NCBI RefSeq assembly: GCF_002929745.1
Contig: NZ_PJIQ01000008.1
Coordinates: 62,001-126,000, forward strand
Reading direction: 5' to 3'
DNA: 64,000 nt
Origin: Arthrobacter sp. B1805
GTDB taxonomy: Bacteria; Actinomycetota; Actinomycetes; Actinomycetales; Micrococcaceae
Shown: one piece after another, positions 7,692-22,194 of the stretch
Layout of the letters: every line of letters begins with the position of its first letter
How positions within the stretch are numbered: position 1 is the stretch's first letter
Notes under the pieces: generated by a model
The model's input: only the letters and a program-made list of their open reading frames with translations
Told to the model about the DNA's origin: nothing
Databases searched by the model: none
Program-made: the position numbers and the translations under genes

Positions 7692-7880
7692 CTACTTGGA
7701 CGCTTCCTTGTTCACATCCGTCGGCGAGTCGAACTCGCGGTCAGGCAGGCCGTTGAGCGTGTCCACGACCGCATCGTCGGCGCCCTTGTCCTTCGCGTGC
7801 TGGACGAGGTCCTCCTTCGATGCCGGATACTCCATGCCGCCCAGTGCCTTCTGGATGTCGATCGGGCTCGGATCTGCCAT
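7692..7880 (-). CDS. DUF2795 domain protein
   Basis: 62-residue acidic soluble protein that is almost wholly a DUF2795 domain: the start SPIDIQKALGGMEYPASKED, then LVQHAKDKGADDAVVDTLNGLP and the ending DREFDSPTDVNKE are characteristic. The family is common in actinobacteria and has no proven function; a nucleic-acid or stress role has been guessed from its small helical fold. AAGGAG lies 7 bases before the ATG. It is a single-gene unit closed by a strong hairpin. Confidence 0.85.
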   Translation of the reverse strand: MADPSPIDIQKALGGMEYPASKEDLVQHAKDKGADDAVVDTLNGLPDREFDSPTDVNKEASK

Positions 7881-7938
7881 GTGGTGCTCCTTCGTATCGG
7901 TTACCTTGCACGGTGGTGCTCCCGGTCGGAGAGCACCG

Positions 7939-8802
7939 TCACTGGCCCAGGATCACGTGGGCAGCGTCTATCTCACGGTCCGTCACCGTGGTGGGCGCCT
8001 CGAGGTGGACGGCTCCCGACGGGATGATGCCCGCCCCTCCGTAGCGCTCCATGACGCGCCACTGCGCGGCGACGTCCTCCCCGGCATGCTCCGGAGGCAG
8101 TCGGTCCCAGAAGTCGAACCCACCGCACTCCACGAGGGACTCCCTGTCGAACAGGACGCACCCGCCGACCCAGGCGACCCTGTACAGCAGCCACTCACCG
8201 GGCGGTACCGCGAGGTCGGCGGCGGCATGCGCCAGGTTCGCCGCGTTGTGGAGCGGCCACCGGGCGAACCCTGCGGTTCCCGGGCGGATCCGCTCGGGCT
8301 GCACCCTGTTGCCGGGCCACAGCGCCAACTCGGTCCGCTCATGGGGCCGACGGTCGTCGAGGTAGGACAAACCCTGCACGGCGGACCCCACGAAGCCGCA
8401 GCCGGCAGCCTGCAGTGCCTTGCACATGCGGCCGAGGGACCCGGGCTCGAGCCAGACGTCGTTGTCGAGGAAGAGGACGAACGGAGCGCGTGCCAGTCCC
8501 AGGAGGTACTCGCGGTGTTCGGCCAGCCCCCTGCGCGGCAGGTGCCGCTCGAGGCGGACGTGCCGTCCCTGGGCTTCGAGCACCCGCACCATGGCACGCA
8601 CGGCCGGCGCCGTGAAGGATGCCACTTCCCCTTCGGTCTGGTCGCTCACGATCACGCGGAACGGTACGCCCTCCTGCGCGGCGAGCCCCGACAGCGTGAC
8701 GGCGAGTTCCGCGGGACGCCCGAAGGAGGGGATCAGCACATCCACGAGGGGCTCCTCGGCGGGCGCTTCGACGGCCCACTCCCCCGACCAGCGCAGTGTC
8801 AC
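7939..8802 (-). CDS. Glycosyltransferase family 2
   Basis: Inverting GT-A glycosyltransferase of 287 residues. VDVLIPSFGRPAELAVTL opens the nucleotide-binding fold (residues 20-37). The metal-binding DxD is LFLDNDVWLEPGS near residue 112. The second-half motif GGFDFWDRLPPEHAGEDVAAQ near 230 carries the ED acid pair typical of GT2. No membrane helix is seen, so it acts at the cytoplasmic face. Its start overlaps the stop of the preceding HldE-type gene by 4 bases (ATGA), so it is the third gene of a transcript ALDH-hldE-GT2. It probably adds a sugar in the heptose glycan; the donor is unknown. Confidence 0.85.
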   Translation of the reverse strand: MTLRWSGEWAVEAPAEEPLVDVLIPSFGRPAELAVTLSGLAAQEGVPFRVIVSDQTEGEVASFTAPAVRAMVRVLEAQGRHVRLERHLPRRGLAEHREYLLGLARAPFVLFLDNDVWLEPGSLGRMCKALQAAGCGFVGSAVQGLSYLDDRRPHERTELALWPGNRVQPERIRPGTAGFARWPLHNAANLAHAAADLAVPPGEWLLYRVAWVGGCVLFDRESLVECGGFDFWDRLPPEHAGEDVAAQWRVMERYGGAGIIPSGAVHLEAPTTVTDREIDAAHVILGQ

Positions 8803-10391
8803 GACGCGTCCCCCGCCACGGGCGTCGACCGGATCCTCCGGACCACGGCCGCGGTGGACCGTTCCGGCACGTAGTCGAGGATGCTGACCCTCCCGCCGCA
8901 GGCCTCGACGGCCGGCGCCTCCTCCAGCATCTGGGCGGTGTAGTCACCGCCCTTCGCATAGACGTCCGGCTTCAGCAGCTCGATGAGCGGGACCAGGGTG
9001 TCGGTCCCGAAGACGGTGACGTAGTCGACGCAGCTCAGCGACGCGATGATGCCCGCGCGGTCGGCGATCGGGTTGATGGGGCGATCGGGGCCCTTGAGCC
9101 TGCGGACGCCGTCGTCGTCGTTCAGCGCCACCACGAGGACGTCGCCGAGCTGCTTCGCCTGGTTGAGGTAGCGGGTGTGGCCCCGGTGCAGCACGTCGAA
9201 GCAGCCGTTCGTGAGCACGATGCGCTTGCCGGCCGCGCGGTCCTCCTCGACCCTGCGCAGGAGGTCGGCCGTCGCCAGGGCCGTGTCCGCGAACTGCTGG
9301 AGATGACCCGTCAGGTCGGCCGTCGTGCAGACGGAGGTGCCGGGCCGGTGCACGACGACGTCGGCGGCGGCCTGCGCGAGGTCGAGGCTCGTGGTGAGCG
9401 GCAAGCCGACCGCGCGTGCAGCCGTGAGGCTCGCCACGAAGGTGTCCCCCGCGCCGGAGGCCTGCTTCTCGGTGGCGGGCTTGGCCCAGGTGCGGTGTTC
9501 CTCGCCGTCCTGCCCGAGCAGCACCGTGCCGTCACGGTCCAGGGTGACGACGACGGCGGCGGCGTTCGTGGCCGCGAGGAGCTCGGTCCGCCGTTCCGCC
9601 ACCGTCGCAGCCCTGTCGGACCGCGGATCGAGGCGCGTCGCGAGGACCTGCGCGGCCTCCTGCGCATTCGGGGTGACGATGTCCGGCTCCAGGGCGGACC
9701 ACACGGCGGTGTCATGCGCGTCGACGACGACGAGCATGCCTGGATCCAGCCTCGAGGCGTGCCCGAGTGCCTCGCGGACCTCGTCGCCCAGAGCGCCGGA
9801 CCCGTAGTCGCACACGACGACGGCATCAACCCCCGCGACCGCGTCCGGAATTCTTGCGGCGAGCGACGTGATGGCGGACGGTGGAAGGCCGTCGTGCGTG
9901 TCGTCGAGCCTGAGCATGACCTGGTCCCCACCGAGGATCCGGTACTTCGTGGTGGTGCTGACCCGCTCGTCCTGCACGAGGTCCGTGGTGTCCACGCCCG
10001 CGGCGTCGAGGATTCCCCGCAGGCGGCGCCCGGCGTCGTCGGTTCCGATCAGGCCGCACATCCGGACCCTCGCCCCCAGGGCGGCGAGGTTCATCGCCGT
10101 GTTCGCCGCGCCTCCCGCGGCATAGTCCCGCCGGGTGATGTCCACGACGGGCGCGGGCGCCTCACGGCAGAACCGTTCGATGGTTCCGCTCCACCAGCCG
10201 TCCAGCATCGCGTCGCCGACGACCGTCACACGCGGCGACCGGTCGGCGATGGCTGCGGGGACCCACGCCGCGAGGCCGCGTACCTCCGAGAGGTCTCCGG
10301 CGATGTCGTCCGCGTCGTGTACGCCCGGCACCCGCTCGTCCGGCAGGAGCTCGGGACGGTCCGCCTGGTCGTTCCGTCGCGCGTCGTCCAT
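8799..10391 (-). CDS. hldE: Bifunctional heptose kinase / heptose-1-P nucleotidyltransferase, copy 1
   Basis: 530-residue fusion of a PfkB sugar kinase (about residues 50-365) and a cytidylyltransferase-like domain (about 385-520), the HldE (RfaE) architecture. Kinase marks are VTVVGDAMLDGWWSG, YAAGGAANTAMNLAALG and the catalytic-Asp loop ASGAGDTFVASL. The nucleotidyltransferase has TNGCFDVLHRGHTRYL with its HxGH and KGGDYTAQMLEEA. In HldE the kinase makes heptose 1,7-bisphosphate and the second domain charges heptose 1-phosphate with ATP. About 50 extra N-terminal residues have no counterpart in the 477-residue E. coli enzyme. The ATG overlaps the ALDH stop by one base. It is clearly different from the copy at 13968, so the two may take different sugars. 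Confidence 0.88.
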   Translation of the reverse strand: MDDARRNDQADRPELLPDERVPGVHDADDIAGDLSEVRGLAAWVPAAIADRSPRVTVVGDAMLDGWWSGTIERFCREAPAPVVDITRRDYAAGGAANTAMNLAALGARVRMCGLIGTDDAGRRLRGILDAAGVDTTDLVQDERVSTTTKYRILGGDQVMLRLDDTHDGLPPSAITSLAARIPDAVAGVDAVVVCDYGSGALGDEVREALGHASRLDPGMLVVVDAHDTAVWSALEPDIVTPNAQEAAQVLATRLDPRSDRAATVAERRTELLAATNAAAVVVTLDRDGTVLLGQDGEEHRTWAKPATEKQASGAGDTFVASLTAARAVGLPLTTSLDLAQAAADVVVHRPGTSVCTTADLTGHLQQFADTALATADLLRRVEEDRAAGKRIVLTNGCFDVLHRGHTRYLNQAKQLGDVLVVALNDDDGVRRLKGPDRPINPIADRAGIIASLSCVDYVTVFGTDTLVPLIELLKPDVYAKGGDYTAQMLEEAPAVEACGGRVSILDYVPERSTAAVVRRIRSTPVAGDAS

Positions 10392-11800
10392 CAGGCACCC
10401 TCCTGCGGCGCACTGATGTGCACGACCTTCACGAGGGCGAACTCGTCCAGCAGTTCCGGTCCGTAGCCGAAGCCCGCCCCGCTGATGCCCCGCGGCTGCG
10501 CGGACCCGCCCGGCGCACCGCCGAAGACGGCGTTCACCTTGACCGTGCCCACCGGGAGCCGGGCGATCGCCTGCTGGGCGTGCGCGATGCTGCCCGTCAG
10601 CACGGAGGCGGCGAGGCCGTAGGGGCCGCCCGCGGCAAGCCGGAGGCCCTCATCGAAGCTCTCCACGACGGTCACCGGTGCGACCGGTCCGAACGTCTCC
10701 TCCGTCATGACGTTCATCGCCTCGGTGCACCCGGCAAGGACGGTCGCCGGGTAGTGGGCGCCCGGCCCGTCCGGCACCGAACCACCCTCGAGGCATTCCG
10801 CGCCGAGCCGGATGGCTTCGCCGACCTGCCCGTCCACGATGTCCCGCATGCGGCGGTCGACGAGGGGCTGGCGATTTCCGCCGGCGTTCCGCCGCCGTGC
10901 CTCGTCGACGAGCGCGGCCAGGAACGGCTCGGCGATTCCCCGGTGGACGTAGATCCGTTCGACCGAGGTGCAGATCTGGCCGCTGTTGGCGAAGGCACCC
11001 AGTGCTGCCTGTGAGGCCGCCCAGACGGGATCGACATCGGCGTCGACGATCAGCGGGTCGTTGCCGCCGTTCTCCCGGATGACGTGTGCACCGGTGAGTG
11101 ACGCCGTCCGCGCGATGCGTGCTCCCGTAGCGCTGGAGCCGACGTGGGCGAAGACGTCCACGCCGGTCTCCATGGTCAGCATCTGGCCCACCTCGGCGCC
11201 ACCGGTCAGCGTGGTGAGGACTCCCTCCGGGAAGGCGGGCTGGAGCAGGCGCCCCAGCAGTTCGCCGACGTGGGGGCAGCGCTCGCTCGGCTTGTGGATG
11301 ACGACGTTGCCGGTGACCAGGGCTGCACCGATGAGTCCGGCGGCGACGGCCACCGGATCGTTCCACGGCGTCAGGAGCACGGCTACGCCGCGCGGCTCCG
11401 CGACGGTGTAGTCGGTCGCAGTGACCGCGCCACGGAGGCTCAGCCCACGGTGCACCGGGCCCAGTTCCGCATACTGCTCGAGGGTCGAGATCCCGGCCTC
11501 GATGCCGCCCAGCGAGTCCTCGAGCAGCTTGCCGGTCTCCCGCGTGTTCAACTCCGCCAGTTCCTGCGCGCCGTTCCGCAGCGCGGCGGCAGCTCGGCGC
11601 AGGGCCGCACCGCGGTCCGCCGGGCTCGTCGCGGCCCATTCCGGCTGCACGGTCCGCGCCAGTGAGATGGCGAGTGCCACCTGCTCGCGAGCGACGCAGG
11701 GCAAGGTGCCGACCTCACTGCCGTCCCGCGGGTCATGGATCGTGATCGATCGATCGGCCTGCACATCAAGCAGAGTGTCTGCCTGGGAGTTGATGGACAT
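10391..11800 (-). CDS. Aldehyde dehydrogenase family protein
   Basis: 469-residue NAD(P)-dependent aldehyde dehydrogenase. It shows the substrate-channel region AVLLTPWNDPVAVAAGLIGA near residue 135, the coenzyme-site Lys in VIHKPSERCP, the catalytic Glu in IRENGGNDPLIVDADV near 243 and the catalytic Cys in FANSGQICTSVERIYV near 277, followed by EETFGPVAPVTVV. It is first in a run with the HldE copy and the GT2 gene, divergent from a family-9 glycosyltransferase. That placement suggests it oxidises a sugar aldehyde or aglycone of the glycan, but no substrate can be read from sequence. AAGGAG lies 5 bases before the ATG. Confidence 0.85.
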   Translation of the reverse strand: MSINSQADTLLDVQADRSITIHDPRDGSEVGTLPCVAREQVALAISLARTVQPEWAATSPADRGAALRRAAAALRNGAQELAELNTRETGKLLEDSLGGIEAGISTLEQYAELGPVHRGLSLRGAVTATDYTVAEPRGVAVLLTPWNDPVAVAAGLIGAALVTGNVVIHKPSERCPHVGELLGRLLQPAFPEGVLTTLTGGAEVGQMLTMETGVDVFAHVGSSATGARIARTASLTGAHVIRENGGNDPLIVDADVDPVWAASQAALGAFANSGQICTSVERIYVHRGIAEPFLAALVDEARRRNAGGNRQPLVDRRMRDIVDGQVGEAIRLGAECLEGGSVPDGPGAHYPATVLAGCTEAMNVMTEETFGPVAPVTVVESFDEGLRLAAGGPYGLAASVLTGSIAHAQQAIARLPVGTVKVNAVFGGAPGGSAQPRGISGAGFGYGPELLDEFALVKVVHISAPQEGA

Positions 11801-11931
11801 TGCGCTCCTTGATGTCGAGTACCGGCGCGGCTCGTTCCCACCGCGCGGCTAGTGATTCCGTACCCAGCGTGCGCCCGTTCACACACGTCACCGTCCGATT
11901 TCTACGCCGCTCACGCAACCATCAGCACGCT

Positions 11932-12011
11932 TAGCATAGTGTGGCACCAGGAGAAGAGGCGGCCGCCCACCCGCAGCGAAAAAGGCATGGACAGCAGGAG
12001 CACTGCTGTCC
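11932..12011 (+). promoter_or_regulatory. Possible promoter and leader hairpin of the 12062 gene
   Basis: TAGCAT (11932-11937) may serve as a -10 in the divergent ALDH/GT9 gap. A perfect 9-bp stem, GGACAGCAG/CTGCTGTCC (11989-11997 and 12003-12011) with a 5-base loop, would lie in the leader about 50 bases before the start codon. Role unknown. Confidence 0.3.
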
Positions 12012-12061
12012 GTGCGGGCAGCCGTACCGGCGATGGCACCAGCAGATGAACGGGGAAGAAC

Positions 12062-13216
12062 GTGATGCAGCAGGATACGACGGCGGATTTCGGCGGACGG
12101 CAGGACACCGCGAGGTCGGTCGGACCGGTGCTCGAGCCGTTCGAGGACGTGCGGAGCATCGCCGTCCTGCGCGGCGGAGGGCTCGGCGACCTCATGTTCG
12201 CGATGCCGGCCATCGCCGCCCTGAAGGACACCTACCCGGAGGCGGACATCACCCTCCTCGGTATGCCGGGGCATGCGGCGCTGCTCGCCGGGCGGCCAGG
12301 GCCGGTGTCGGCGGTGCTGGAACTCCCGTTCTCTCCCGGCGTACGCCCGGGGGACGAGGACCCGGAAGCCGTCGAGCGGTTCTTCACCGGAATACGCGGT
12401 TCCTTCGATCTCGCCGTCCAGCTGCACGGCGGCGGGCGGAACTCGAACCCGTTTCTCCTGCGCCTCGGCGCGCGCCACACCGTGGGCACGCGGACGCCGG
12501 ACGCCGTAGCGCTGGAACGCACCATCCCGTACGTCTACTACCAGCACGAGGTGTTCCGTGCACTGGAGGTGGTGGGACTCGCCGGCGCCGTTCCCGTGGA
12601 CCTGGAGCCACGGGTGCACGTGCTGCCGGCCGAAGCAGACCGCGCTGCACAACTCACCGGCGAGGGCGCCGTGATCGCTCTTCACCCAGGCGCCACGGAC
12701 CCCCGCAGGAGATGGCCGTCGTCGTCGTTCGCGGAGGTCGCGGTGCGCGCGGCAGCGGACGGGTGCGAGGTGCTGGTGGTCGGGGACGAGACGGACGTCC
12801 CGACGGCGGAGGACATCGTCCGGCTGGCCCTCCAGGCCGATCCGACGGCGAACGTGCGCTCGCTCGCCGGTCAGCTGACGCTCGGGGAGCTGACCGGCGT
12901 GCTGGACCGCAGTGCCGTCATGGTGGGCAACGACAGCGGGCCGCGTCACCTCGCGCAGGCGGTCGGTACGCCGACGGTCGGCGTCTACTGGATCGGCAAC
13001 GTGATCAACGCCGGGGCGATCGGACGCACACTCCACCGCGTGCACTTCTCGTGGGTGACGCACTGCCCCGTGTGCGGGGTGGACGTGACCCAGGTGGGCT
13101 GGACTGCGGAACGATGCGAGCACGATGACTCGTTCGTCGCGCCGGTCCAGCCCGCCGCCGTCTACACGGACGTGGCCGAACTCAGGGCCACGAGCCTTCT
13201 TCTGCGTGGGCGATGA
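12062..13216 (+). CDS. Glycosyltransferase family 9 (heptosyltransferase-like), copy 1
   Basis: 384-residue GT-B enzyme of the family that transfers heptose from ADP-heptose. The N-terminal domain begins IAVLRGGGLGDLMFAMPAIA near residue 38. The C-terminal donor domain has IALHPGATDPRRRWP near 205, the family Asp motif VGNDSGPRHLAQAVGTPTVG near 285 and a late HCPVCGVDVTQVGWT. No signal or membrane helix. GTG 12062 and ATG 12065 are adjacent in-frame starts after GGGGAAG. It is transcribed away from the ALDH-hldE-GT2 run. Its last 35 bases overlap the end of the convergent SDR gene. Confidence 0.88.
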   Translation: MMQQDTTADFGGRQDTARSVGPVLEPFEDVRSIAVLRGGGLGDLMFAMPAIAALKDTYPEADITLLGMPGHAALLAGRPGPVSAVLELPFSPGVRPGDEDPEAVERFFTGIRGSFDLAVQLHGGGRNSNPFLLRLGARHTVGTRTPDAVALERTIPYVYYQHEVFRALEVVGLAGAVPVDLEPRVHVLPAEADRAAQLTGEGAVIALHPGATDPRRRWPSSSFAEVAVRAAADGCEVLVVGDETDVPTAEDIVRLALQADPTANVRSLAGQLTLGELTGVLDRSAVMVGNDSGPRHLAQAVGTPTVGVYWIGNVINAGAIGRTLHRVHFSWVTHCPVCGVDVTQVGWTAERCEHDDSFVAPVQPAAVYTDVAELRATSLLLRGR

Positions 13217-13904
13217 CCATCTCGCGGATCTCGCAGCTCTTGGGCTGCGACAGCGCGAACAGGATCGCCTCGGCGACGCGCTCGGGGTCGTTCAGCCGTG
13301 AGTCGTCCTGGGGCTTGTACTGCTCGTCGCGATCGTCGAAGAAGCGCGTCTTCATACCGCCCGGGATGATCGTCGTCACGCCGATCTGGCCGGCGGTCTC
13401 CGCTGCCAGGGCCTGCGAGAAGCCCATCACGCCGAATTTCGAGGCACAGTAGGCCGTCGCGTCGCCGACCGCCTTGATGCCGAGCGTCGAGGCGATCGTC
13501 ACGACGCGCCCGTGGGTCTTCTTCAGGTAGGGCAGCGCGGCACGGGCGGTCGACGCCGTGCCCATGAGGTTCACGCCGATCACCTTCTCCCACTGATCCG
13601 CGGGCACCGTGTCGAGCGCTCCGCAGCGGTCGATACCGGCGGCGGTGACAACGGCGTCGAGGCCGTCCATCATCTCTGCCGCCTCGCGCACCGCCGCCTC
13701 CACGGCCGCCCGGTCGGCGACGTCGACCTCGAAGGCCTTGACGCCCGTCACGCGACTGATGTCGCGGTCGAGCACCACCGGTGTGCCACCTGCGGCGATC
13801 ACACCCTGGACGATGGCTGCTCCGAGGCCGGAGCCCCCGCCCGTCACCAGGACGCGTCCCGGGTTGAATCCTGTACCTGCTGTGGTTCCTGCGTTCTCGG
13901 TCAT
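13182..13904 (-). CDS. Short-chain dehydrogenase/reductase
   Basis: 240-residue classical SDR. The NAD(P) motif is LVTGGGSGLGAAIVQG near residue 20. A DVAD acidic loop, then TAAGIDRCGALDT and the catalytic tetrad with Ser in TIASTLGIKA and YCASK (Tyr-x-x-x-Lys) near 152-156 follow. The end of the fold is IPGGMKTRFFDD. It lies 63 bases downstream of the second hldE gene on the same strand and is probably the last gene of the heptose operon. It is too short and of the wrong SDR type for the epimerase HldD. It could reduce or oxidise a sugar intermediate. Confidence 0.85.
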   Translation of the reverse strand: MTENAGTTAGTGFNPGRVLVTGGGSGLGAAIVQGVIAAGGTPVVLDRDISRVTGVKAFEVDVADRAAVEAAVREAAEMMDGLDAVVTAAGIDRCGALDTVPADQWEKVIGVNLMGTASTARAALPYLKKTHGRVVTIASTLGIKAVGDATAYCASKFGVMGFSQALAAETAGQIGVTTIIPGGMKTRFFDDRDEQYKPQDDSRLNDPERVAEAILFALSQPKSCEIREMVIAHAEEGSWP

Positions 13905-13967
13905 GCTGTTCCTTTCGTTGCTTGGTCCCGGCCGGCTGGATCGGTCCGGGCCCGTCTCTGCAGCCCG

Positions 13968-15335
13968 TCAGCCTACTCGGGCGAGCGCGGCTGCAAGTTT
14001 GGTGGTGGAGCGGGCTGGGATGTAGGGGACGGTGACGGTCCTGCCACCCCAGCTGGCGACGAGGGCGGCCTCGGGAAGGTCCTCGGCCGCGTAGTCGCCA
14101 CCCTTGACCCAGATGTCCGGCTGCAGGCGCGAGATGGCATTCTCCGGGGTCGACTCGCCGAAGACGAGGACTGCGTCGACGCACTCGAGAGCCGAGAGCA
14201 GCTCGGCGCGGTCCTCCTGCTTGATGATCGGCCGGGTCTCGCCCTTCAGACCACGCACCGACTCGTCGGAGTTGAGACAGACGATGAGGCAGTCGCCGAG
14301 TCGTCGGGCGGCGGCAAGGGTCCGCGCGTGGCCGGCGTGCAGGAGGTCGAAGCACCCGCCGGTGGCCACCACGGTCCCGCCCGCCTCCCGCGTCCGGCGT
14401 GCCACTGTGAGAGCGTCCAGGCCGTCGACCGGCAACTGTTCCGGAGCTGCAGGCCGCTCCCGGCCCATGGATCCGACGCCACCGGAGCCGAGGAAGTGCG
14501 CCGCGGCCTCCGTCGCCTGCTGGGCCGCGTCGTCGATCGCAGCTCCCCGGGCGAGCCCGACCGCGAGCGCGGAGGCGAAGCGGTCGCCTGCCCCGCAGGG
14601 GTCGGCAGCGGTGACGCGGGGGGCGGGCACCACCTGGGGCAGGAGTCCCCTCGCTCCCACGAGCGCGCCGTGTTCGCCCATGGTCACCAGGACGGCGCGG
14701 CTGCCCCACTTCTCGAGCAGGACGTCGGCGGCGGCCGCTGCGGCCTGGGTGCCCGAACCTGCGATGTCGGCGAAACGCAGTGCCTCACCGATGTTCGGCG
14801 TCACCGCTGCGACTCCCGGCACCGGACGCGCGCCCGATGGATGGGGGTCCCACACCACGGGGACGGACACCGCAAGCGTCTCGAGCCGCGCACGGAGCTC
14901 GTCGTTCCCGAGCAACCCCCTGCCGTAGTCCGCAGCGACGATCGCGTCGGCGTGCTCGAGTGCCGCGAGCATCTCCTCGGTGCAGCCGGGCACGGGCGGC
15001 GTCGCGCAGCCCTCGTCGAAGCGCACCACGGGCTGTCCCGAAGCGCGGACCCTGGTCTTGACCGGGGTCGGCGCGCCTGAAGGCCCGGCGACCACGGTCA
15101 CGCCGTCGAGTTCCGCGCGCAGCAGTCCCGCCGCGTCGTCGTCCCCGAGAACGGTGACCAGGACGGCGTCGTGCCCGTCCGACTGCAGCATGCGGGCCAC
15201 GAGACCGGCTCCGCCCGCCCGGCGCCGCACGGCGTCGACGTCGACGACGGGCACCGGCGCGTCGGGCGAGAGCCGCCCCGCGCCGCCAGAGAGATCGGTA
15301 TCGAGCAGGACGTCGCCCACCACCACGATCCTCAT
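13968..15335 (-). CDS. hldE: Bifunctional heptose kinase / heptose-1-P nucleotidyltransferase, copy 2
   Basis: 455-residue PfkB kinase (residues 1-300) fused to a cytidylyltransferase-like domain (about 320-450). The kinase part carries RIVVVGDVLLDTDLSG, the HldE-like GRLSPDAPVPVVDVD near residue 21 and the catalytic loop DPCGAGDRFASALAVG near 253. The transferase part has ATGGCFDLLHAGHARTLA with HxGH, CLNSDESVRGLKG and VKGGDYAAEDLPEA. The RLSPDAPVPVV box is closer to classical HldE than copy 1. The 4-base overlap with gmhA (15332-15335) ties it to the isomerase that makes its substrate. Product expected: NDP (probably ADP)-D-glycero-beta-D-manno-heptose. Confidence 0.9.
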   Translation of the reverse strand: MRIVVVGDVLLDTDLSGGAGRLSPDAPVPVVDVDAVRRRAGGAGLVARMLQSDGHDAVLVTVLGDDDAAGLLRAELDGVTVVAGPSGAPTPVKTRVRASGQPVVRFDEGCATPPVPGCTEEMLAALEHADAIVAADYGRGLLGNDELRARLETLAVSVPVVWDPHPSGARPVPGVAAVTPNIGEALRFADIAGSGTQAAAAAADVLLEKWGSRAVLVTMGEHGALVGARGLLPQVVPAPRVTAADPCGAGDRFASALAVGLARGAAIDDAAQQATEAAAHFLGSGGVGSMGRERPAAPEQLPVDGLDALTVARRTREAGGTVVATGGCFDLLHAGHARTLAAARRLGDCLIVCLNSDESVRGLKGETRPIIKQEDRAELLSALECVDAVLVFGESTPENAISRLQPDIWVKGGDYAAEDLPEAALVASWGGRTVTVPYIPARSTTKLAAALARVG

Positions 15336-16021
15336 CGCTGTGCCTCCCGCCGGCGGTGTACTTCGGCGTCGAACGCCCGGCAGATCGCGTGGAGTGCAAT
15401 CAGGTGGCCCTCCTGGGCGTTGGCTGACTTCGCGTCGATTGCCACGTAGTCGTCCACGCGGTCGGCCAGCGGGTTGGGGCCAGGCCCTGTGAGCGCCCAG
15501 GTCGTGACGCCTGCCGCCCGGGCGGCGTCGACGGCGTGGAGCAGGTTGGGGCTCTTGCCGCTCGTGCTCAGGAGGATCAGGATGTCACCGTCCCGTCCAT
15601 GGGCGCTGACCTGCCGGGCGAACATGTGGTCGAATCCGTAGTCGTTCGCGATCGCGGTGACCGCGGAGCTCTCGGCGTGGAGCGAGATCGCGGAGAAGGG
15701 CTCGCGCTCGCCATCGAAGCGGCCCACGAGCTCTGCGGTGAGGTGCTGCGCCTCGGCAGCCGAACCACCGTTGCCTGCGGCGAGCAGTCGCTGCCCTGCC
15801 ATGAGCCGATCGGCCATCTCGACACCCCACCCGGCGAGGGTGCCGGCGTTCTGCACCAGGGACTCGAGCGCGGGGGTGACCGCGCGGAGGTGGTCCAGGA
15901 CGAGGCGTCGCGAATCCTCCTGCACCGCATCCGTTGCGCGCTCAGGCTGTCCGGAGGGGATCGTCGGTGCTGGGGTGTCGGTGCGCGTCTGGGTGAAGAC
16001 GTCCGAAAGATGCGTGGTCAC
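15332..16021 (-). CDS. gmhA: Phosphoheptose isomerase (SIS domain)
   Basis: Converts sedoheptulose 7-phosphate to D-glycero-D-manno-heptose 7-phosphate, the entry step of heptose activation. 229 residues; E. coli GmhA has 192, and the extra 35 or so form a Thr/Pro-rich N-terminus. The SIS core is typical: AAGNGGSAAEAQHLTAELVG near residue 82 with the catalytic Glu, then LLSTSGKSPNLLHAVDAA and the C-terminal helix EGHLIALHAICRAFDAEV with the catalytic His. Four-base overlaps join it to the GT4 gene before it and the hldE gene after it, so stoichiometric expression is likely. Confidence 0.92.
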   Translation of the reverse strand: MTTHLSDVFTQTRTDTPAPTIPSGQPERATDAVQEDSRRLVLDHLRAVTPALESLVQNAGTLAGWGVEMADRLMAGQRLLAAGNGGSAAEAQHLTAELVGRFDGEREPFSAISLHAESSAVTAIANDYGFDHMFARQVSAHGRDGDILILLSTSGKSPNLLHAVDAARAAGVTTWALTGPGPNPLADRVDDYVAIDAKSANAQEGHLIALHAICRAFDAEVHRRREAQR

Positions 16022-17310
16022 AGTGCCCTGCCTCCCGTGCTCTCGAGTCGACGCGCGGCGCTCCGCCGCGCGGTGGCCGGTTGTGCGGGCGCTGCCGCAC
16101 CCAGGGCCGTCTGGTATGCCTTTTCCGTGTCCGCAGCAATGCGGCTCCAGGAGTAGCGGGCGCGTACGCGCCGGTAGCCGTTGTCACCGAGTTCGCGCGC
16201 CCATTCGGGGTCCCCCACGATGTCTGCGATGGCTGCCGCGATGGCGGCCGGATCCTGGGGCGGGACATGGAGACCGGTCTTGCCGTCCACGACCGTGTCC
16301 ACCAGTCCGCCGACGGCCGCCGCGATGACCGGGACGCCGCACGCCATCGCCTCCAGCGGCACGATCCCGAACGGTTCGTACCACGGGGCGCAGACGACTG
16401 CGTCGGCACTTCTCAGGACCGCCGGCATCTCGGCGCGGGAGACCTGACCTCGGAGGACGACCCGGTCGGCTACGTCGAGCTCGAGGGCGAGCGCGCGGAG
16501 CCGCTGCGCTTCCGGGTCGTCCTCGAGGCTCGTCGAATTGCCCGCGCCCCCGACGATGACGAGTTCGACGTCGTCCCGCCCCAGCTCTGCGAGGTCACGG
16601 AGGGAACGGATGACGAGGTCCATGCCCTTGCGGGGGACGAGCCGGCCGACACTGACGATGCGATGTGCGCGGCCTCGCTCCTCCACGGGACCCCGTGGCG
16701 TGAACAGTTCGAGGTCGACGCCGCACGGCGCGATCGAGACACGGCTGCCGGGAACACCCATCGCCTTCAACTCGAAGACCTCGTCGGAGCACGTCGCCAC
16801 GATCCGGTCGGCGCTCCGGCCCACCATGGTCTCGAGCATGAGCCGCTCGGACGGGCTCGTGTCCTCCGCCCCCTGGTGCCGGCGCTTCACCGTCCCGAGG
16901 GCGTGGAAGGTCTGGACGACCTGCACCGGGCGGCCTGCTGCCCGCGACTGCCCTGCGGCGTCGAGCGCGGCCAGCCCGGACATCCAGAAGTGCCCGTGCA
17001 CGATGTCCGGCGGCTCCTGGCCCCAGTCCGCCACGATGCCTTCTGCGAGTTCACCCATGTACGGCAGCAGCATGTCCTTCGGGACGCTCCTCACGGGGCC
17101 GGCGGTGATGTGGACGACCTCGAGCCGCGGCTCGGTCCGAACCCGGTCGGGAACGGCAGGATCGTCGCGCCGCGTATATACCGTCACCTCATGACCGCGG
17201 CGCGCGAGTGCGAGGGACAGCTCGGCCACGTGGACGTTCTGCCCGCCGGCATCGACGCCTCCCAACGCCGCAAGGGGGCTTGCATGCTCAGACACCATGG
17301 ATATCCTCAC
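16018..17310 (-). CDS. Glycosyltransferase family 4
   Basis: 430-residue retaining GT-B enzyme. The start RISMVSEHASPLAALGGVDA with GGQNVHVAELSLALARRGHE is that of MshA-like transferases. The donor site has VSVGRLVPRKGMDLVI near residue 217 and the EX7E region CAPWYEPFGIVPLEAMACG near 312. The tail after residue 395 is Ala/Arg-rich and poorly conserved. The GTG start at 17310 overlaps the preceding stop (GTGA). It probably adds a hexose or modified sugar to the heptose-containing product. The donor cannot be assigned; true MshA is not usually found in a heptose operon. Confidence 0.87.
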   Translation of the reverse strand: MRISMVSEHASPLAALGGVDAGGQNVHVAELSLALARRGHEVTVYTRRDDPAVPDRVRTEPRLEVVHITAGPVRSVPKDMLLPYMGELAEGIVADWGQEPPDIVHGHFWMSGLAALDAAGQSRAAGRPVQVVQTFHALGTVKRRHQGAEDTSPSERLMLETMVGRSADRIVATCSDEVFELKAMGVPGSRVSIAPCGVDLELFTPRGPVEERGRAHRIVSVGRLVPRKGMDLVIRSLRDLAELGRDDVELVIVGGAGNSTSLEDDPEAQRLRALALELDVADRVVLRGQVSRAEMPAVLRSADAVVCAPWYEPFGIVPLEAMACGVPVIAAAVGGLVDTVVDGKTGLHVPPQDPAAIAAAIADIVGDPEWARELGDNGYRRVRARYSWSRIAADTEKAYQTALGAAAPAQPATARRSAARRLESTGGRAL

Positions 17311-18308
17311 TGCGCTTTCCTTTCTGTAGCCGCCAGGACGCGGTGCCGCGTCGGTTCCTGCTCCAGGACGTCGTCCCAGTCGGCGAGGAACCGTGCGAGA
17401 CCGTACCGTGCGAGTGCCGCTTCCCGTGCAGCCAGCCCCCGTGCTCTGGCTTCGTCCGGGTTGTCGATGAGGCGTGCCGCCATGCGGACGAGGTCATCGA
17501 TGCTGGTCGAGATGGCTCCGGCCTCCGGTGGCACCGCACGGGCCGCTTCGGTCGTCGCGAGCGCCAGGACGGGGAGTCCGACATGCATGGCTTCCAGGAG
17601 CGAGAGCCCGAGCGATGTCCAGCGCAGCGGGTGGACATAGGCACGCGACCGTCCGAGCCGGGCATGCAGCTCGGCCATGGGCAGGTCGCCGCCGATGCGG
17701 AGCTCCCCCGGCCCGAGGTCGAGCGCGTCGGCGAGCTTGTGCGTCCCCATGCCGAAGACCTCGAGCGGCGCGACGCCCGCGAATCGTGGGAGCAGATCGG
17801 TGCCGGTGATGCGCCCGCGCCGGACGGGCTCGTTGATGACGGCGGCGAGCTGCTCCAGCTCGCCCGTATACAGGTAGCCGGGATCGACGATGCCGTGCTC
17901 GATGACCCTCGTCCGCGCGTTCCCGTTGTCCCAGAAGAGTTCATTGAAGTGGGTGACGTGGATGACGGGGATCCCCGACTGGTCCGCCAGCGGGTGAACG
18001 GTGCCCACGATGTCCCGGCGGGGCGTGTTGTGCTCGAGGAACACCGCGGGCAGGTCCTGGCCCGGTGTCCGCCCGAGGAGGCGCTCGCACTCGGCGATCT
18101 CCTCGAACCGCTGCAGGACGACGACGTCGATGTCTGCGTCCGCGAGGTCCTGAGGAGCTACTTCGATGACGGAGGCGGGCCAGTTCCGGCCGGCCCTGCC
18201 CAGGCCCCAGGCACCACCCTCGGGGGTCGTGGGCAGCACGTAGGTGTGCTCCCCCCTCACGAAGGCGTCCGTCCACCCTCCGTGGACGTGCCATAACAGG
18301 ATCCTCAT
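17307..18308 (-). CDS. Glycosyltransferase (GT-B, group 1-like)
   Basis: 333 residues, starting RILLWHVHGGWTDAFVRG. Further conserved pieces are VVVLQRFEEIAECERLLG, FLEHNTPRRDIVGTVHPLAD with VIHVTHFNELFWDNG, and the donor-side EX7E-like region HPLRWTSLGLSLLEAMHVGL near residue 220. From general family knowledge, proteins of this type recur beside SIS, PfkB and HAD-IIIA genes in actinobacteria. ATG 18308 overlaps the stop of the GT9 gene (ATGA). No membrane segment. Likely one transferase step of the same product. Confidence 0.8.
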   Translation of the reverse strand: MRILLWHVHGGWTDAFVRGEHTYVLPTTPEGGAWGLGRAGRNWPASVIEVAPQDLADADIDVVVLQRFEEIAECERLLGRTPGQDLPAVFLEHNTPRRDIVGTVHPLADQSGIPVIHVTHFNELFWDNGNARTRVIEHGIVDPGYLYTGELEQLAAVINEPVRRGRITGTDLLPRFAGVAPLEVFGMGTHKLADALDLGPGELRIGGDLPMAELHARLGRSRAYVHPLRWTSLGLSLLEAMHVGLPVLALATTEAARAVPPEAGAISTSIDDLVRMAARLIDNPDEARARGLAAREAALARYGLARFLADWDDVLEQEPTRHRVLAATERKAQ

Positions 18309-19408
18309 CGGTTTCCCCTCGTTGTTCGGCGGCCCTCTGTACGGCCGATGGTGCGGCGCGAGCCGAGTGACGATACTCCGGAGCTGAGCCGCAGGGCGGC
18401 ATCCACCACATCCTCCGGGGAGACATTGGACAGGCACGGGTGTCCCTGCACCGGGCAGATGCGGGCGCGGCTGAGCGCGCACGCCGCCTGCTGGTCGCCG
18501 AGCAGTTCGACGGGGACACGGTACGGCGCCCAGCGGATGGCGGGCACCACGGGCGAGAACAGGCAGACGACAGGTGTGCCCACCGCCGCCGCCAGGTGCG
18601 CGGGACCGGTGTTCCCCGTGATGACGACGGTCGCTCCGGCGAGGATGGAGCCCAGCGCCGCCAGATCCGTCCGGCCACCCAGATCGACGGCCTCCGGACC
18701 TGCGACGGTGGAGGTGAGGTCTGTCTCGTTCGGTCCACCTGTGACGACCACGCGGAAGCCCGCCGCGGTCAGCAGTTCGACGGCGGCGGCGTGGTGCAGT
18801 GGCGGCCACGCGCGCGCGGGCACGGAAGCCCCCGGGTGGACGACGACGTAGGGTCCGCGGCCGACGAGATCGGAGGCGTCCGTGAGGTTGGTGACCTGGA
18901 GCCGGCCGTCGTCCCCGGGCGGCAGGGCATAGCCGGCCGCCTCCGCTATGCCGAGGGCGCGTTCCGCTTCCGGCTGGTCCTCGGGGAAGTCCTCCCCCGG
19001 CTTGAGCCGCACGTCGAGGAGCGACCCGGCGTAGTCGACCGATGCACCCGCGATACGCCGCACGCCCGCGAGCCGCAGCAGGAGCGCCAAGGGCAGGGGC
19101 GACTGGTGGAACGAGGTCAGGATCACCGCTTCGTGGACACCTGCCGCCTCGACGGCGTCGTGCAGTTCGCCCAAGAGTTCCGGCGTGACCTCCGGTGGCG
19201 GATCCACGATCCAGGGCGCGGCCCAGGTGAGGACGTCGACGACGCCAGGCAACAGCCTCGCTGCAGCGGCACCCTGCGGGCCGCACAGCATGACGACGTC
19301 GTTCGGCGAGTCGCCGTGGTCGCCGGCCGCGATCGCACGGACGGCGGGGCCTGCGAGCAGGACGTCGCCGGCGCTGTCGAGCCGGACCACCAGCACGCGC
19401 CGCCTCAT
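18305..19408 (-). CDS. Glycosyltransferase family 9 (heptosyltransferase-like), copy 2
   Basis: 367-residue GT-B protein resembling WaaF/WaaC-type heptosyltransferases. It begins RRRVLVVRLDSAGDVLLAGP, and the donor domain shows YVVVHPGASVPARAWPP near residue 186, VITGNTGPAHLAAAVGTPVV near 262 and a late Cys-rich ARICPVQGHPCLSNVSPEDV. The LDSAGDVLL variant replaces the usual LGDVI motif but keeps G-D. The C-terminus (last 30 residues) is Arg/Thr-rich. It overlaps gmhB upstream and the next transferase downstream by 4 bases each. It is the heptosyltransferase most tightly coupled to precursor synthesis. Confidence 0.88.
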   Translation of the reverse strand: MRRRVLVVRLDSAGDVLLAGPAVRAIAAGDHGDSPNDVVMLCGPQGAAAARLLPGVVDVLTWAAPWIVDPPPEVTPELLGELHDAVEAAGVHEAVILTSFHQSPLPLALLLRLAGVRRIAGASVDYAGSLLDVRLKPGEDFPEDQPEAERALGIAEAAGYALPPGDDGRLQVTNLTDASDLVGRGPYVVVHPGASVPARAWPPLHHAAAVELLTAAGFRVVVTGGPNETDLTSTVAGPEAVDLGGRTDLAALGSILAGATVVITGNTGPAHLAAAVGTPVVCLFSPVVPAIRWAPYRVPVELLGDQQAACALSRARICPVQGHPCLSNVSPEDVVDAALRLSSGVSSLGSRRTIGRTEGRRTTRGNR

Positions 19409-19953
19409 GGCGTCCCGGCCCAGAGGAAGTCGACGGCCTCGGCGAGATTCCCGGCGACGGCCGGGGCGGACCGGATCTCCTCCTCGAGCGTGATGTCCGT
19501 GGGCACGAGCACCGCGCGGGCACCGGCGGCGGCGGCGGCACCCATGTCAGCTCCGATGTCGCCGATCACGGCGACGTCCGACGGATCGAGGCCGAGGCGG
19601 GCACTGGCCGAGAGAACCATCCCGGGACCCGGCTTGCGGCATCCGCACCCGTCGTCGTTCCCGTGCGGGCAGAGCTCCCAGACATCGAAGGGGCCGAGCA
19701 GTTCTTCCACGCGGGCATTGACGGCGTCGACCTGCTCCCGCGTCACGAAACCGCGGGCGATGCCGGACTGGTTGGTAACCACGCCGACCGGGACGCCTCG
19801 TGACCGCAGGCCGTCGAGGACCTCGCGGGCTCCGGGCATGGGCTGTACGAGCGACGGGTCGCCGTTGTACGGAACGTCGATGACGATGGTCCCGTCGCGG
19901 TCGAACAGGACCGCCCGGGGAGCTGTCTGCGTCAGTCCGGCCGAAGTGTGCAT
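19405..19953 (-). CDS. gmhB: Heptose 1,7-bisphosphate 7-phosphatase (HAD-IIIA)
   Basis: 182-residue HAD-IIIA phosphatase, the family length, first gene of the six-gene coupled run. Motif I is AVLFDRDGTIVIDVPYNGDP with nucleophile and acid Asp near residues 19-21. Motif II is VVTNQSGIARG near 60, and motif III plus the zinc site is CPHGNDDGCGCRKPGPGM near 95. The metal-binding Cys/His cluster has a shorter loop than E. coli GmhB. IGDIGADMGAA is motif IV. It removes the 7-phosphate so that HldE can activate the 1-phosphate. AACTAA close to the ATG hints at a nearby promoter. Confidence 0.9.
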   Translation of the reverse strand: MHTSAGLTQTAPRAVLFDRDGTIVIDVPYNGDPSLVQPMPGAREVLDGLRSRGVPVGVVTNQSGIARGFVTREQVDAVNARVEELLGPFDVWELCPHGNDDGCGCRKPGPGMVLSASARLGLDPSDVAVIGDIGADMGAAAAAGARAVLVPTDITLEEEIRSAPAVAGNLAEAVDFLWAGTP

Positions 19954-20002
19954 ACAGGCTTAGTTCCCGAGAAGGAGCAGTACTAAACACTTTGTGCAGA
20001 AC

Positions 20003-20038
20003 TTCTTCTCCTGCTTCTTCTCCTGCTTCTTCTCCTGC
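20003..20038. repeat. 12-base tandem repeat, three units
   Basis: Three perfect copies of TTCTTCTCCTGC followed by a degraded TCCTCCTCC tail. It sits in the divergent gap between gmhB and the third GT9 gene. In the forward frame it would read Phe-Phe-Ser-Cys repeats, but that frame has no ribosome site. Confidence 0.9.
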
Positions 20039-20110
20039 TCCTCCTCCGCGCCGTCCCTCGGCCGCGATTCCACCCCCGTGCAGGGCCCCCTGCGGGCCAC
20101 GCGTCGGCCC

Positions 20111-20140
20111 GTGCCGACCCGTGCCGACCCGTGCCGACCC
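20111..20140. repeat. 10-base tandem repeat, three units
   Basis: Three perfect copies of GTGCCGACCC, 72 bases past the 12-base array and 51 bases before the GT9 start codon. The upstream CGTCGGCCC looks like a decayed fourth unit. Confidence 0.88.
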
Positions 20141-20191
20141 ACGGCTCGCGCTGCGACGGGCGCCCGCCGATCCTCTGGCAGGATGATTTGC

Positions 20192-21232
20192 ATGACTTCC
20201 GAGGGCACCAGCGCCGAAAGCGCTCATCAGGCGTTGCAGGGACACCACGAGCACGTATCGGCCGACGCGACCACCCGCGCCATCCCCAGCACGACACCCC
20301 CACCGGACGGGCGGCCCGAGATCCTGGCCCTCCGCGCCCTGAAGCTCGGCGATCTGCTCGTCGCCGTCCCGGCCCTCCGGGGATTGCGTCGCGCGTTCCC
20401 GGAACACCGGATCTTCTACGCCGCGCAGGAGTGGCTACGACCGGTCGTCGCCCTCACCGACGCCGTCGACGACCTGCTGCCCACGCACGGGCTCGACGAC
20501 CCCCTGCCCATCGAGCACGGGCGGATCGACCTGGCCGTGAACCTCCACGGCAACGGCGCGGAGAGCCGGGGACGGCTCGAGGAGATCGGCGCCGGACGCC
20601 TCATGGGCCACAGGGCGCCGGGCTGGGAGGGGCCCGAGTGGGACAACGACGCGCTCGAGCGGCAGCGCTGGGCCTCGCTCGTCAGCTGGCACGGCGTCCC
20701 GGCGGATCCACTGGACTGCCGCCTCCGGGTGCCCGACGGCGACAGCCCCGCTCCTGACGCCGTCGTCGTCCATGTCGGAGCCGCCTATGGCAGCCGTCTC
20801 TGGCCTGTGGAGCGGTTCGCGGCGGTTGCGCGTTCCCTTGCCGCAGCCGGGCACCAGGTGGTGTTCACGGGAAGTGCGAAGGAGCGCCCCCGCGCCCTCG
20901 CGGTCGCCGACGCCGCCGGGCTGACCGAGGAGACCGTCGCGGCGGGGAACCTCCCGCTCGACCGCTTCGCACGACTCATCGCAGGGGCGTCCCTCGTGAT
21001 CTCCGCCGACACGGGAGCCGCCCACCTCGCGTCCGCCTATGCGAGACCGTCGGTCATCCTGTTCGGTCCGGCACCGGTGTCGTCATGGGGTCCCCCGCCG
21101 GGCCCCCACACCGTGCTGACCGACGAGTCGGTACGTGTCGGGGAAACGTTCTCGCCCACACCCGACCCGGCGCTGCTGGCGGTGACCGTGGATCAGGTGC
21201 TGGCAGCCGCAGCCGATCACGGCATCTCCTGA
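20192..21232 (+). CDS. Glycosyltransferase family 9 (heptosyltransferase-like), copy 3
   Basis: 346 residues with the GT9 pattern: ILALRALKLGDLLVAVPALR near residue 44, VVVHVGAAYGSRLWPVERF near 190, and VISADTGAAHLASAYARPSV near 270 with ILFGPAPVSSWGPP. This copy keeps the classic LGD motif. The frame is open back to 19994, but that stretch only translates the tandem repeats. ATG 20192 was chosen because AGGA lies 8 bases upstream. It faces away from gmhB, so the heptose genes are bracketed by two outward GT9 genes. A hairpin closes it at 21243. Confidence 0.87.
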   Translation: MTSEGTSAESAHQALQGHHEHVSADATTRAIPSTTPPPDGRPEILALRALKLGDLLVAVPALRGLRRAFPEHRIFYAAQEWLRPVVALTDAVDDLLPTHGLDDPLPIEHGRIDLAVNLHGNGAESRGRLEEIGAGRLMGHRAPGWEGPEWDNDALERQRWASLVSWHGVPADPLDCRLRVPDGDSPAPDAVVVHVGAAYGSRLWPVERFAAVARSLAAAGHQVVFTGSAKERPRALAVADAAGLTEETVAAGNLPLDRFARLIAGASLVISADTGAAHLASAYARPSVILFGPAPVSSWGPPPGPHTVLTDESVRVGETFSPTPDPALLAVTVDQVLAAAADHGIS

Positions 21233-21242
21233 CGACGCGATA

Positions 21243-21333: not shown

Positions 21334-22194
21334 TCAGGCGATCCGGGTAGCGGCCTCCCGCCCGTCCTGCTCGGCAGGAGCACCCAGGAGCCTCTTCTGC
21401 AGCTTGACCAGGATCCGCGCCAGTGCCCGGGACACCTGCATCTGTGACATACCCAGTTCATCGCCGATGCTCTGCTGGGTCTGCTCCATGAAGTAGCGGC
21501 GGTACAGCAGTTCCTTCTCGCTGGCGTCGAGCTCGTTGACGGCGCCACGCAGGGAGATCATGTCGTCACTGCGCTCCATGCCGTTGGAGTCGGTCGCGAG
21601 GGTATCGGCCCAGCTCCGGCCCTCGAAGGGGGCATCCAGCGAGTCCGGCCGGAGGCTCGAGTACGATGCCTGGGCTTCGAGGATCTTCTCCTCCGGCCAC
21701 CCGAGCTCGATCCCGAGCTCGCGGGCCGTCGCTTCACGACCGAGCCGCTGGGCCATGGCGGGTGCCGTACGGGCGATCTCGGTGCGGAGGTCCTGCACAT
21801 CCCTGGGCGGCCTCACCACCCAGCACGAGTCCCGCAGGTAGCGCTTGATCTCCCCGTTGATGGTGGGGACGGCGAAGGAAGCGAAGGGAACCCCCCGCGC
21901 AGGATTGAAACGCTGCACCGCCTTGATCAGGCCGAGATAGGCCACCTGCCTGATGTCGGACGCCTCCGGACCGGACACGGCGAAGGAGCGGGCCACCGAC
22001 TCGGCGATGTCCATGTGTCGCAGGGCGATGTCGTCCTGCAGTGCTGCTTTGAGGGGGCGTTCCGAGTAGCCGTCACCCTCGGAGTCACTGCCGCTGCCGC
22101 CGCCCGCAGCCCGGTGATCGACGACGTCCATCGCCTCCACGGTGCGTTGTGCGGGGGCCCCGTGGTTCACGAGGGGTGCGGCGGTACTCGGCAT
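21334..22194 (-). CDS. Sigma-70 family factor, SigB/SigF type
   Basis: 286-residue alternative sigma factor. Region 2 has VARSFAVSGPEASDIRQVAY and GLIKAVQRFNPARGVPFAS, then FAVPTINGEIKRYLRDSCW. Region 3 is RELGIELGWPEEKILEAQAS. Region 4 carries the helix-turn-helix QQSIGDELGMSQMQVSRALA near residue 240. The order and the VRPPRDVQDL linker match the B/F/G stress and sporulation group. An acidic, Gly/Ser-rich N-terminal extension of about 50 residues precedes region 2. No anti-sigma gene (RsbW-like) is next to it, unlike many SigB/SigF loci, so its control must lie elsewhere. Confidence 0.9.
   Translation of the reverse strand: MPSTAAPLVNHGAPAQRTVEAMDVVDHRAAGGGSGSDSEGDGYSERPLKAALQDDIALRHMDIAESVARSFAVSGPEASDIRQVAYLGLIKAVQRFNPARGVPFASFAVPTINGEIKRYLRDSCWVVRPPRDVQDLRTEIARTAPAMAQRLGREATARELGIELGWPEEKILEAQASYSSLRPDSLDAPFEGRSWADTLATDSNGMERSDDMISLRGAVNELDASEKELLYRRYFMEQTQQSIGDELGMSQMQVSRALARILVKLQKRLLGAPAEQDGREAATRIA

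Follow-up and report, generated by a model that had tools for sequence, protein, structure and literature searches.

An extended cwg-type operon with a predicted heptose pathway and a SigB/SigF-type promoter motif in Arthrobacter sp. B1805

Results

A glycan operon in the Arthrobacter window

The genome of the Gram-positive actinobacterium Arthrobacter sp. B1805 (GCF_002929745.1; 3.80 Mb, 79 contigs) carries a compact run of carbohydrate genes at positions 7939-21232 of a 64,000-nucleotide stretch of contig NZ_PJIQ01000008.1 (positions 62,001 to 126,000 of the forward strand; hereafter "the window"). The run encodes GmhA, GmhB, two HldE fusions, three GT9, two GT4 and one GT2 glycosyltransferases, together with an aldehyde dehydrogenase (ALDH) and a short-chain dehydrogenase/reductase (SDR). 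Judged by its sequence, the locus belongs with the known cwg-type operons, as an extended variant, and we consider it probable that it is controlled by general stress and makes a heptose oligosaccharide or glycoconjugate. New here are the stress-type promoter motif, the pair of HldE proteins and a GT4 enzyme (GT4a) that resembles sucrose-phosphate synthase (SPS).

An earlier note, made from the DNA letters, had named the gmhA, gmhB and two hldE genes and the six glycosyltransferase genes, and all of them were recovered at the same coordinates by Pfam and NCBIfam searches. The genes, their catalytic residues, their order and the promoter motif can be read directly from the DNA, as follows.

7698..7883, minus strand: DUF2795 small protein of 62 amino acids, directly 3' of GT2 (PF11387, 85.3 bits)
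7939..8802, minus strand: GT2 glycosyltransferase (PF00535, 41.2 bits)
8799..10391, minus strand: HldE1, likely PfkB-type heptose-7-phosphate kinase and nucleotidyltransferase fusion (NF008454, TIGR02199)
10391..11800, minus strand: ALDH (PF00171, 349 bits; Cys277 and Glu243 present)
12062..13216, plus strand, opposite to its neighbours: GT9a, heptosyltransferase family (PF01075, 89.8 bits when the whole genome was searched)
13182..13904, minus strand: SDR (PF00106, 135.7 bits; S139, Y152 and K156)
13968..15335, minus strand: HldE2, cwgI counterpart, likely kinase/nucleotidyltransferase with Arg before STT, STTR5-like (NF008454, TIGR02199)
15332..16021, minus strand: GmhA, predicted sedoheptulose-7-phosphate isomerase, cwgH counterpart (PF13580, 78.8 bits; NF010546)
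16018..17310, minus strand: GT4a, cwgG counterpart, SPS/MshA-like (structure matches 6kih and 3c4q)
17307..18308, minus strand: GT4b, cwgF counterpart, the glycosyltransferase used as cluster marker (PF00534, 36.8 bits)
18305..19408, minus strand: GT9b, cwgE counterpart (PF01075, 82.7 bits)
19405..19953, minus strand: GmhB, predicted heptose-bisphosphate phosphatase, cwgD counterpart, head of the operon (NF006506, 115.7 bits)
19963..19988, minus strand: SigB/SigF-type promoter motif GTTTAG-N14-GGGAAC, 9 nt upstream of the ATG of GmhB
about 20192..21232, plus strand: GT9c, cwgJ counterpart, divergent, start codon uncertain (PF01075, 78.4 bits)
21334..22194, minus strand: sigma factor of the SigB/SigF/SigG family, probable regulator (TIGR02980, 200 bits, below the cut-off of 234)

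Neighbouring genes on the minus strand overlap by a few bases or sit at most about 65 bases apart, the exception being the GT9a stretch between the ALDH and SDR genes. The G+C fraction across the cluster (8001-22000, in 2-kb steps) is 0.699-0.725, against 0.655-0.703 in the remaining window. Three competing open reading frames (ORFs) were set aside: the minus-strand ORF 11888-13123 shadows GT9a and matches no Pfam family, and 17288-17944 and 17941-18738 lie in the wrong frame and match no family. Downstream of the cluster, a CDF-like cation transporter ORF (6908-7681, minus strand) covers model positions 109-279 of 285 and may be truncated.

A core shared with the Streptomyces cwg operon

The prototype of such loci is Streptomyces coelicolor SCO6179-6190, a 'putative cell wall glycan operon' (Hong et al. 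2002, as cited in PMC6767563), among whose products are a phosphoheptose isomerase and a synthase/transferase with two functions (PMC5839063); its cell wall glycan is called 'predicted' (PMC6767563), and the accounts consulted name no product. The earlier note's suggestion that the Arthrobacter locus lacks a close precedent is not borne out, given this operon and a gene-for-gene counterpart of the window's core on a Streptomyces plasmid (L007). L007 is a 12-gene form, the fourth to ninth genes of which match GmhB, GT9b, GT4b, GT4a, GmhA and HldE2 of the window in that order and are 47-62% identical to them (60% for GT9b), and its second GT9 is 47% identical to GT9c. The order GmhB-GT9-GT4-GT4-GmhA-HldE on one strand is common to the window, L007 and a further locus, L137. 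Using L007 and the published S. coelicolor product list, so far as PMC5839063 and PMC6767563 give it, and assigning letters by order, we equate the core with GmhB (cwgD), GT9 (cwgE), GT4 (cwgF), GT4 (cwgG), GmhA (cwgH) and HldE (cwgI), plus the second GT9 (cwgJ).

The likeness stops short of a full cwgA-L set. Counterparts of cwgA, B, C, K and L are not among the window's cluster genes, the GT2 bearing no more than a weak resemblance to cwgC, K and L (31%), and cwgB was not found in the whole genome, in a search that had no positive control. Conversely, the window has SDR, ALDH, GT9a, HldE1 and GT2 beyond the cwg set, and its recognised promoter motif is of SigB/SigF type, where S. coelicolor has a SigE promoter. 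NDP-heptose (nucleoside-diphosphate-heptose) enzymes as such have already been reported to be widespread (Tang et al. 2024, through the commentary PMC11461863). Among the titles and abstract beginnings listed from the open-licence PMC literature, none dealt with heptose in actinobacterial walls, and a term search of PMC13118837 and PMC10950880 returned no mention of heptose.

A predicted route from sedoheptulose 7-phosphate to NDP-heptose

The earlier note had read the locus as a complete route from sedoheptulose 7-phosphate to an NDP-heptose, with dedicated glycosyltransferases, in a Gram-positive actinobacterium, and had found its product not evident. Our analysis supports this as a predicted route. 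Residue conservation was counted over the loci that gave an adequate match, out of 103 searched. GmhB keeps its DxD pair and Cys/His cluster, which we take to be the HAD motif and a zinc cluster, in 96/96 relatives. The zinc ligands of GmhA, as in the N. gonorrhoeae enzyme (PMC5387315), are likewise kept (H93 and E97 in 97/97, Q203 and H211 in 96/97). Both HldE proteins have the HldE architecture, in which a PfkB kinase (GAGD) is fused to a nucleotidyltransferase (HxGH, KGGD). Within HldE2, GAGD and the HxGH histidines are kept in 91/91 and KGGD in 84-89 of 91; the corresponding figures for HldE1 are 52/53 in each case (for GAGD, at the least-kept position). These counts exclude 3 of 94 HldE2 and 36 of 89 HldE1 matches in which the other HldE fitted the place better.

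The genome's only three GT9 matches all lie in the cluster, and the (D/N)(T/S)G..H signature is present in nearly all aligned relatives (49 GT9a, 100 GT9b and 77 GT9c, 4 of the last stopping short of the signature). ALDH keeps Cys277 and Glu243, presumably the catalytic residues, each in 53/54 relatives, and SDR keeps S139, Y152 and K156, presumably its catalytic residues, in 85/85.

In its first four steps, its PfkB-type HldE fusion and its GT9 transferases, the route resembles the ADP-heptose pathway of the Gram-negative lipopolysaccharide (LPS) core (GmhA, HldE, GmhB, HldD; WaaC/WaaF), from which it differs in having two HldE proteins and no HldD over the cut-off anywhere in the genome (best 87.7 versus 274.6 bits). 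Since HldD is missing at this threshold, the expected heptose is D-glycero-D-manno-heptose. As for the GDP-heptose (S-layer) pathway, which employs HddA/HddC, the cluster showed enzymes of the HldE type alone. To our knowledge, no LPS is to be expected in the group to which the window belongs.

Two distinct HldE proteins

In a tree of 44 rows, which we picked ourselves and two of which end at a stretch edge, the 16 rows of HldE1 make up a single supported group, as do the 25 of HldE2/cwgI; three HldE from proteobacteria fall on the HldE1 side under midpoint rooting. A recent duplication was rejected in view of the two separate clades. The groups also differ in the residue before STT, which is Arg in 85/91 HldE2 (Arg442 in the window) and mixed in HldE1 (H 23, R 20 and Q 5 of 53), the window's own HldE1 having Arg too. 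This residue bears on nucleotide breadth (Tang et al. 2024, through the commentary PMC11461863), although Arg is not strictly required for it (same commentary). The contrast between a near-constant Arg in HldE2 and a mixed position in HldE1 suggests that the two proteins may use different nucleotide donors. Arg directly before STT, in 85/91 HldE2 and in the window's HldE1, is the point of likeness to the NDP-heptose enzymes with the STTR5 signature (PMC11461863), from which HldE1 as a group departs with Arg in only 20/53. Relative to the (F/L)XXGXSTT motif as given there, HldE2 (YIPARSTT) and HldE1 (YVPERSTA) of the window differ at positions 1 and 4, and HldE1 at the last position as well.

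A GT4 enzyme with acceptor residues of sucrose-phosphate-synthase type

The solved structures closest to GT4a are 6kih (Thermosynechococcus Tll1590, TeSPS; 237 bits) and 3c4q (176 bits), which we take to be MshA; even so, GT4a scores below the cut-offs of both the SPS and the MshA models. An assignment as MshA itself was rejected (241.7 bits versus a cut-off of 462.5), the genome's MshA lying elsewhere at 484.5 bits. TeSPS positions were mapped on the structure-match alignment with a numbering offset of 3, consistent with the residues. TeSPS A48, Q51, R105, H158, R178 and E331, to which acceptor and catalytic roles are ascribed (PMC7264703), correspond to A, Q, K, H, R and E in the GT4a loci (A in 99/100, the other five in 100/100); in the window these are GGQN, Lys78, His136, Arg156 and Glu312. 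In the MshA encoded elsewhere in the genome, the Gln position is occupied by Met. The retention of the SPS residues makes a phosphorylated sugar the likely acceptor of GT4a.

A SigB/SigF-type promoter motif ahead of GmhB

The window's GTTTAG-N14-GGGAAC element, nine bases 5' of the GmhB ATG, agrees with the SigB/SigF consensus (SigB: GTTTAA-N12-14-GGGA/TAA/T, PMC8346170), and, given this short distance, the message may be leaderless. It is also the sole match to GTTTA-N12-16-GGG[AT]A[CT] in the 64-kb window. We then scored GTTT-N13-17-GGG[AT]A within 200 bp upstream of gene starts in 77 loci (82 were given and 5 had no usable GmhB). The motif preceded GmhB in 55/77 loci including the window (54/76 relatives), against 0.84% of 16,400 random 215-bp windows from the same loci. 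Ahead of the other cluster genes it was found in 0/77 loci for GT9c, 0/76 for SDR, 8/56 for GT9a and none for each remaining gene. A narrower pattern with GGGTA as the -10 element matched 6/77 loci strictly (background 0.65%) and 8/77 loosely, and was replaced by GGG[AT]A.

Beyond this set, 7 of 20 further loci of the class had a site ahead of some cluster gene, which is weaker support. Two loci of the same class (L134 and L135, both of family f11, in genomes of 6.2 and 5.0 Mb) have a cwg-type set in which GTTT-N-GGGTA sites precede cwgF and cwgK and, in L134, also cwgA. Streptomyces L007 has instead a SigE-like site ahead of cwgA, in a search that covered L007 and the class loci and was run without a control.

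A SigB-type sigma gene adjoins the cluster in the window and has a relative within 10 kb on either side in 38 of 63 named loci. We take the DUF2795 protein of the window, and the BrkB/YihY, DUF3618, holin-like PF07332, GAF-ANTAR and FUSC neighbours that recur in relatives (see below), to be of stress type. In published work, salt raises cwgA in S. coelicolor (PMC13011467), and a Frankia gene annotated as ADP-heptose:LPS heptosyltransferase, which may or may not belong to a cluster of this kind, is salt-raised and unique to salt-tolerant strains (PMC5563000).

A further element, AGAAGAAGT, lies at window positions 20001-20009 (minus strand), 12 bp upstream of the GTTT element. The exact 9-mer precedes GmhB in 12/77 loci, against 0.1% of random windows, and where both elements occur the spacing is exactly 12 bp in 8/9 loci. 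It is a possible activator site.

Conservation of the cluster across actinobacteria

HldE2 was found in 57 of 197 genomes of the same family, the window's own included, and in 14 of 32 genera (E <= 1e-30); both HldE proteins were present in 19 of the 20 HldE2 loci taken as stretches of at most 20 kb. The marker GT4b occurred in 98/394 sampled genomes of the class, representing 45/137 genera (E <= 1e-40). A scan of named genomes gave at least 574 relatives, from which 80 loci were kept. Gene presence was counted in the 63 of these whose stretches reached 20,900 bases or more; the 17 shorter ones were omitted. A gene is called absent when it is missing within about 10 kb; identity floors were 50% for SDR and GT2 and 40% for ALDH. 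Most of the cluster was present nearly throughout (GT9b, GT4a and GmhA in 62 loci each, GmhB and SDR in 61, HldE2 in 60), followed by GT9c (53), HldE1 (46), GT9a (44), ALDH and the sigma gene (38 each) and GT2 (17). HldE1 co-occurs with GT9a (p=6e-5 over the 63 loci, kinship ignored).

The search for conserved order that the earlier note had called for found the same order in tens of genomes, which is more than chance would give. A strain-specific acquired island was rejected, as the same order recurs across many genera. Among the matches listed, Arthrobacter sp. SX1312 (91%) comes closest of the named relatives by GT4b, followed by A. echini (85%), both Arthrobacter; the soil or skin source that had been supposed is not established.

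Around the relatives' clusters, BrkB/YihY, holin-like PF07332, DUF3618, GAF-ANTAR and FUSC/aromatic-acid-exporter-like genes recur. Of the 125 loci or records tested for DUF2795, 19 had it, among them the window. No flippase or polymerase was seen among the 21 of 40 recurrent neighbour families that were inspected by eye, six of them through Pfam, a survey in which rarer partners may have been missed. In one locus of the same genus (L028), the matches to GT4b, GT9a, HldE1 and GT2 are each split in two, as if frameshifted by sequencing error or decay. A Clavibacter californiensis plasmid typed as mobilizable (L163) carries a GT4b (cwgF) relative with a GT9 at 9995-12033 and a SigB-type sigma relative nearby; GmhA, GmhB and HldE had no match in its 16.8 kb.

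Related sets on Burkholderiales megaplasmids

GT4b relatives were also found in 10 records of Burkholderiales megaplasmids. All three of the loci read (L161, L162 and L164) have relatives of GmhB, GT4a, GT4b, GT9 and cwgA, B, C and L at 31-52% identity, and their GT4a proteins keep Q, K, H, R and E in 3/3, with A, S and S at the A position. Unlike the window, they lack a GmhA or HldE match within their stretches, the donor presumably being supplied by the LPS pathway. In 3/3, the set is adjoined by a one-chain protein that resembles an ABC exporter and carries a response-regulator domain. Homologues of this ABC protein were present in 8 of 125 loci or records (27-38% identity over 211-293 residues). 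DUF2795, BON, DUF4142 or manganese catalase genes lie near the three sets, not all in each locus, and the DUF2795 of the Burkholderia multivorans locus L161 is 50.8% identical to that of the window.

Discussion

Taken together, these data lead us to favour a general-stress-controlled cwg-type operon, for which we infer substrates, step order, product and function as follows. The operon would be driven by a SigB/SigF-type sigma factor of the general stress response, probably the product of the sigma gene beside the cluster. GmhA would convert sedoheptulose 7-phosphate to heptose 7-phosphate, which HldE would phosphorylate at C1; GmhB would then take off the 7-phosphate and HldE would add the nucleotide. 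The three GT9 enzymes would transfer heptose, the SPS-like GT4a would start or extend a chain on a phosphorylated sugar, and the other glycosyltransferases, possibly with SDR and ALDH acting on the sugar, would finish a heptose oligosaccharide or glycoconjugate under stress.

Several observations weigh against this proposal. At the level of regulation, 22/77 loci have no promoter motif, the motif stood ahead of the sigma gene itself in 0/50 loci, and the loci are related to one another and so are not independent samples. Moreover, the motif was widened to GGG[AT]A after the window's own sequence had been seen, so that the relatives, and not the window, are the test. The S. coelicolor cwg operon uses SigE (PMC6767563), and SCO6185 has been proposed as a reference gene, as one of the most steadily expressed (PMC4630627). 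At the level of the enzymes, curated cut-offs are missed by GmhA (NF010546, 160.2 versus 276 bits; another model, 144.9 versus 209.45), by GmhB (NF006506, 115.7 versus 178) and, far more widely, by GT4a in the SPS model TIGR02472 (102.9 versus 576). The full-length HldE model NF008454 gives 365 bits for HldE1 and 280 for HldE2 against a cut-off of 521, for which reason we call the HldE function of both fusions likely. Only the HldE nucleotidyltransferase domain passes its threshold (TIGR02199, cut-off 181.5; HldE1 183.4, HldE2 182.0 bits), and it is because the full-length models fall short that substrates are given here as inferred.

These scores, and the divergence of HldE1 and HldE2 into two clades, would fit a reading in which one or both HldE proteins act on another sugar phosphate and the donors are not heptose. 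We regard this as quite improbable, since the genes are clustered with GmhA, GmhB and three GT9 and the active-site motifs are kept. A more serious contender, which we rate at somewhat less than even, is a classical cell-wall glycan, that is, a polymer or oligosaccharide attached to the wall or membrane, with stress control merely tuning wall repair. The cwg operon is induced by vancomycin, in part through SigE, of which it is a target (PMC6767563), and export is conceivable in relatives, given the ABC exporter-like protein of the Burkholderiales sets, MFS-like proteins of two families (one near 7 and the other near 5 of 81 clusters), a FUSC-like family (8/81) and, in L005, an MFS gene adjoining HldE. 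Yet none of these MFS or FUSC membrane families is a constant companion, the ABC homologues are found in few loci, and family searches of the window's cluster recognised no gene for a flippase, a polymerase, a ligase or an exporter.

The same lack of a recognised export gene in the window would suit a soluble stress metabolite, in which GT4a joins a sugar to a sugar phosphate to give a cytosolic heptose oligosaccharide that serves as protectant or reserve. The SPS-type acceptor residues of GT4a, the SigB/SigF-type promoter and the fact that Gram-positive and Gram-negative bacteria alike have a comparable set all fit; however, GT4a is distant from true SPS, the related MshA also binds a phosphorylated acceptor, and the Burkholderiales ABC protein and the MFS and FUSC neighbours suggest export in those relatives, so that we think this reading rather unlikely. 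Last, hygromycin B is a heptose-containing natural product of actinobacteria. Heptose is also known from actinobacterial septacidin (commentary PMC11461863), and a cluster for a secreted, antibiotic-like glycoside of this kind can be imagined. The wide conservation across families, and a window cluster in which no gene for an aglycone, for resistance or for transport was recognised, make this very improbable.

The operon favoured here may also be viewed in a broader and more speculative light. Cwg-type clusters in general might make not a wall polymer but a soluble heptose oligosaccharide, widespread and induced by general stress, started by the SPS-like GT4 on a sugar phosphate, in actinobacteria and Burkholderiales regardless of envelope type, with NDP-heptose donors that would make many harmless Gram-positives potential agonists of the animal sensor ALPK1. 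We offer this generalization tentatively, as one that is unlikely as it stands.

The cwg operon, a 'putative cell wall glycan' operon since 2002, can now be tied to a complete predicted heptose pathway, a stress-type promoter motif and a GT4 of sugar-phosphate type. With its GT4b marker in roughly one in four of the Actinomycetes genomes sampled and on Burkholderiales megaplasmids, it would constitute a testable, conserved stress glycan system, and one that is found in bacteria without LPS. If stress does lead these bacteria to make NDP-heptose, ALPK1 ligands would have an unexpected source in actinobacteria of the environment and in those associated with plants.

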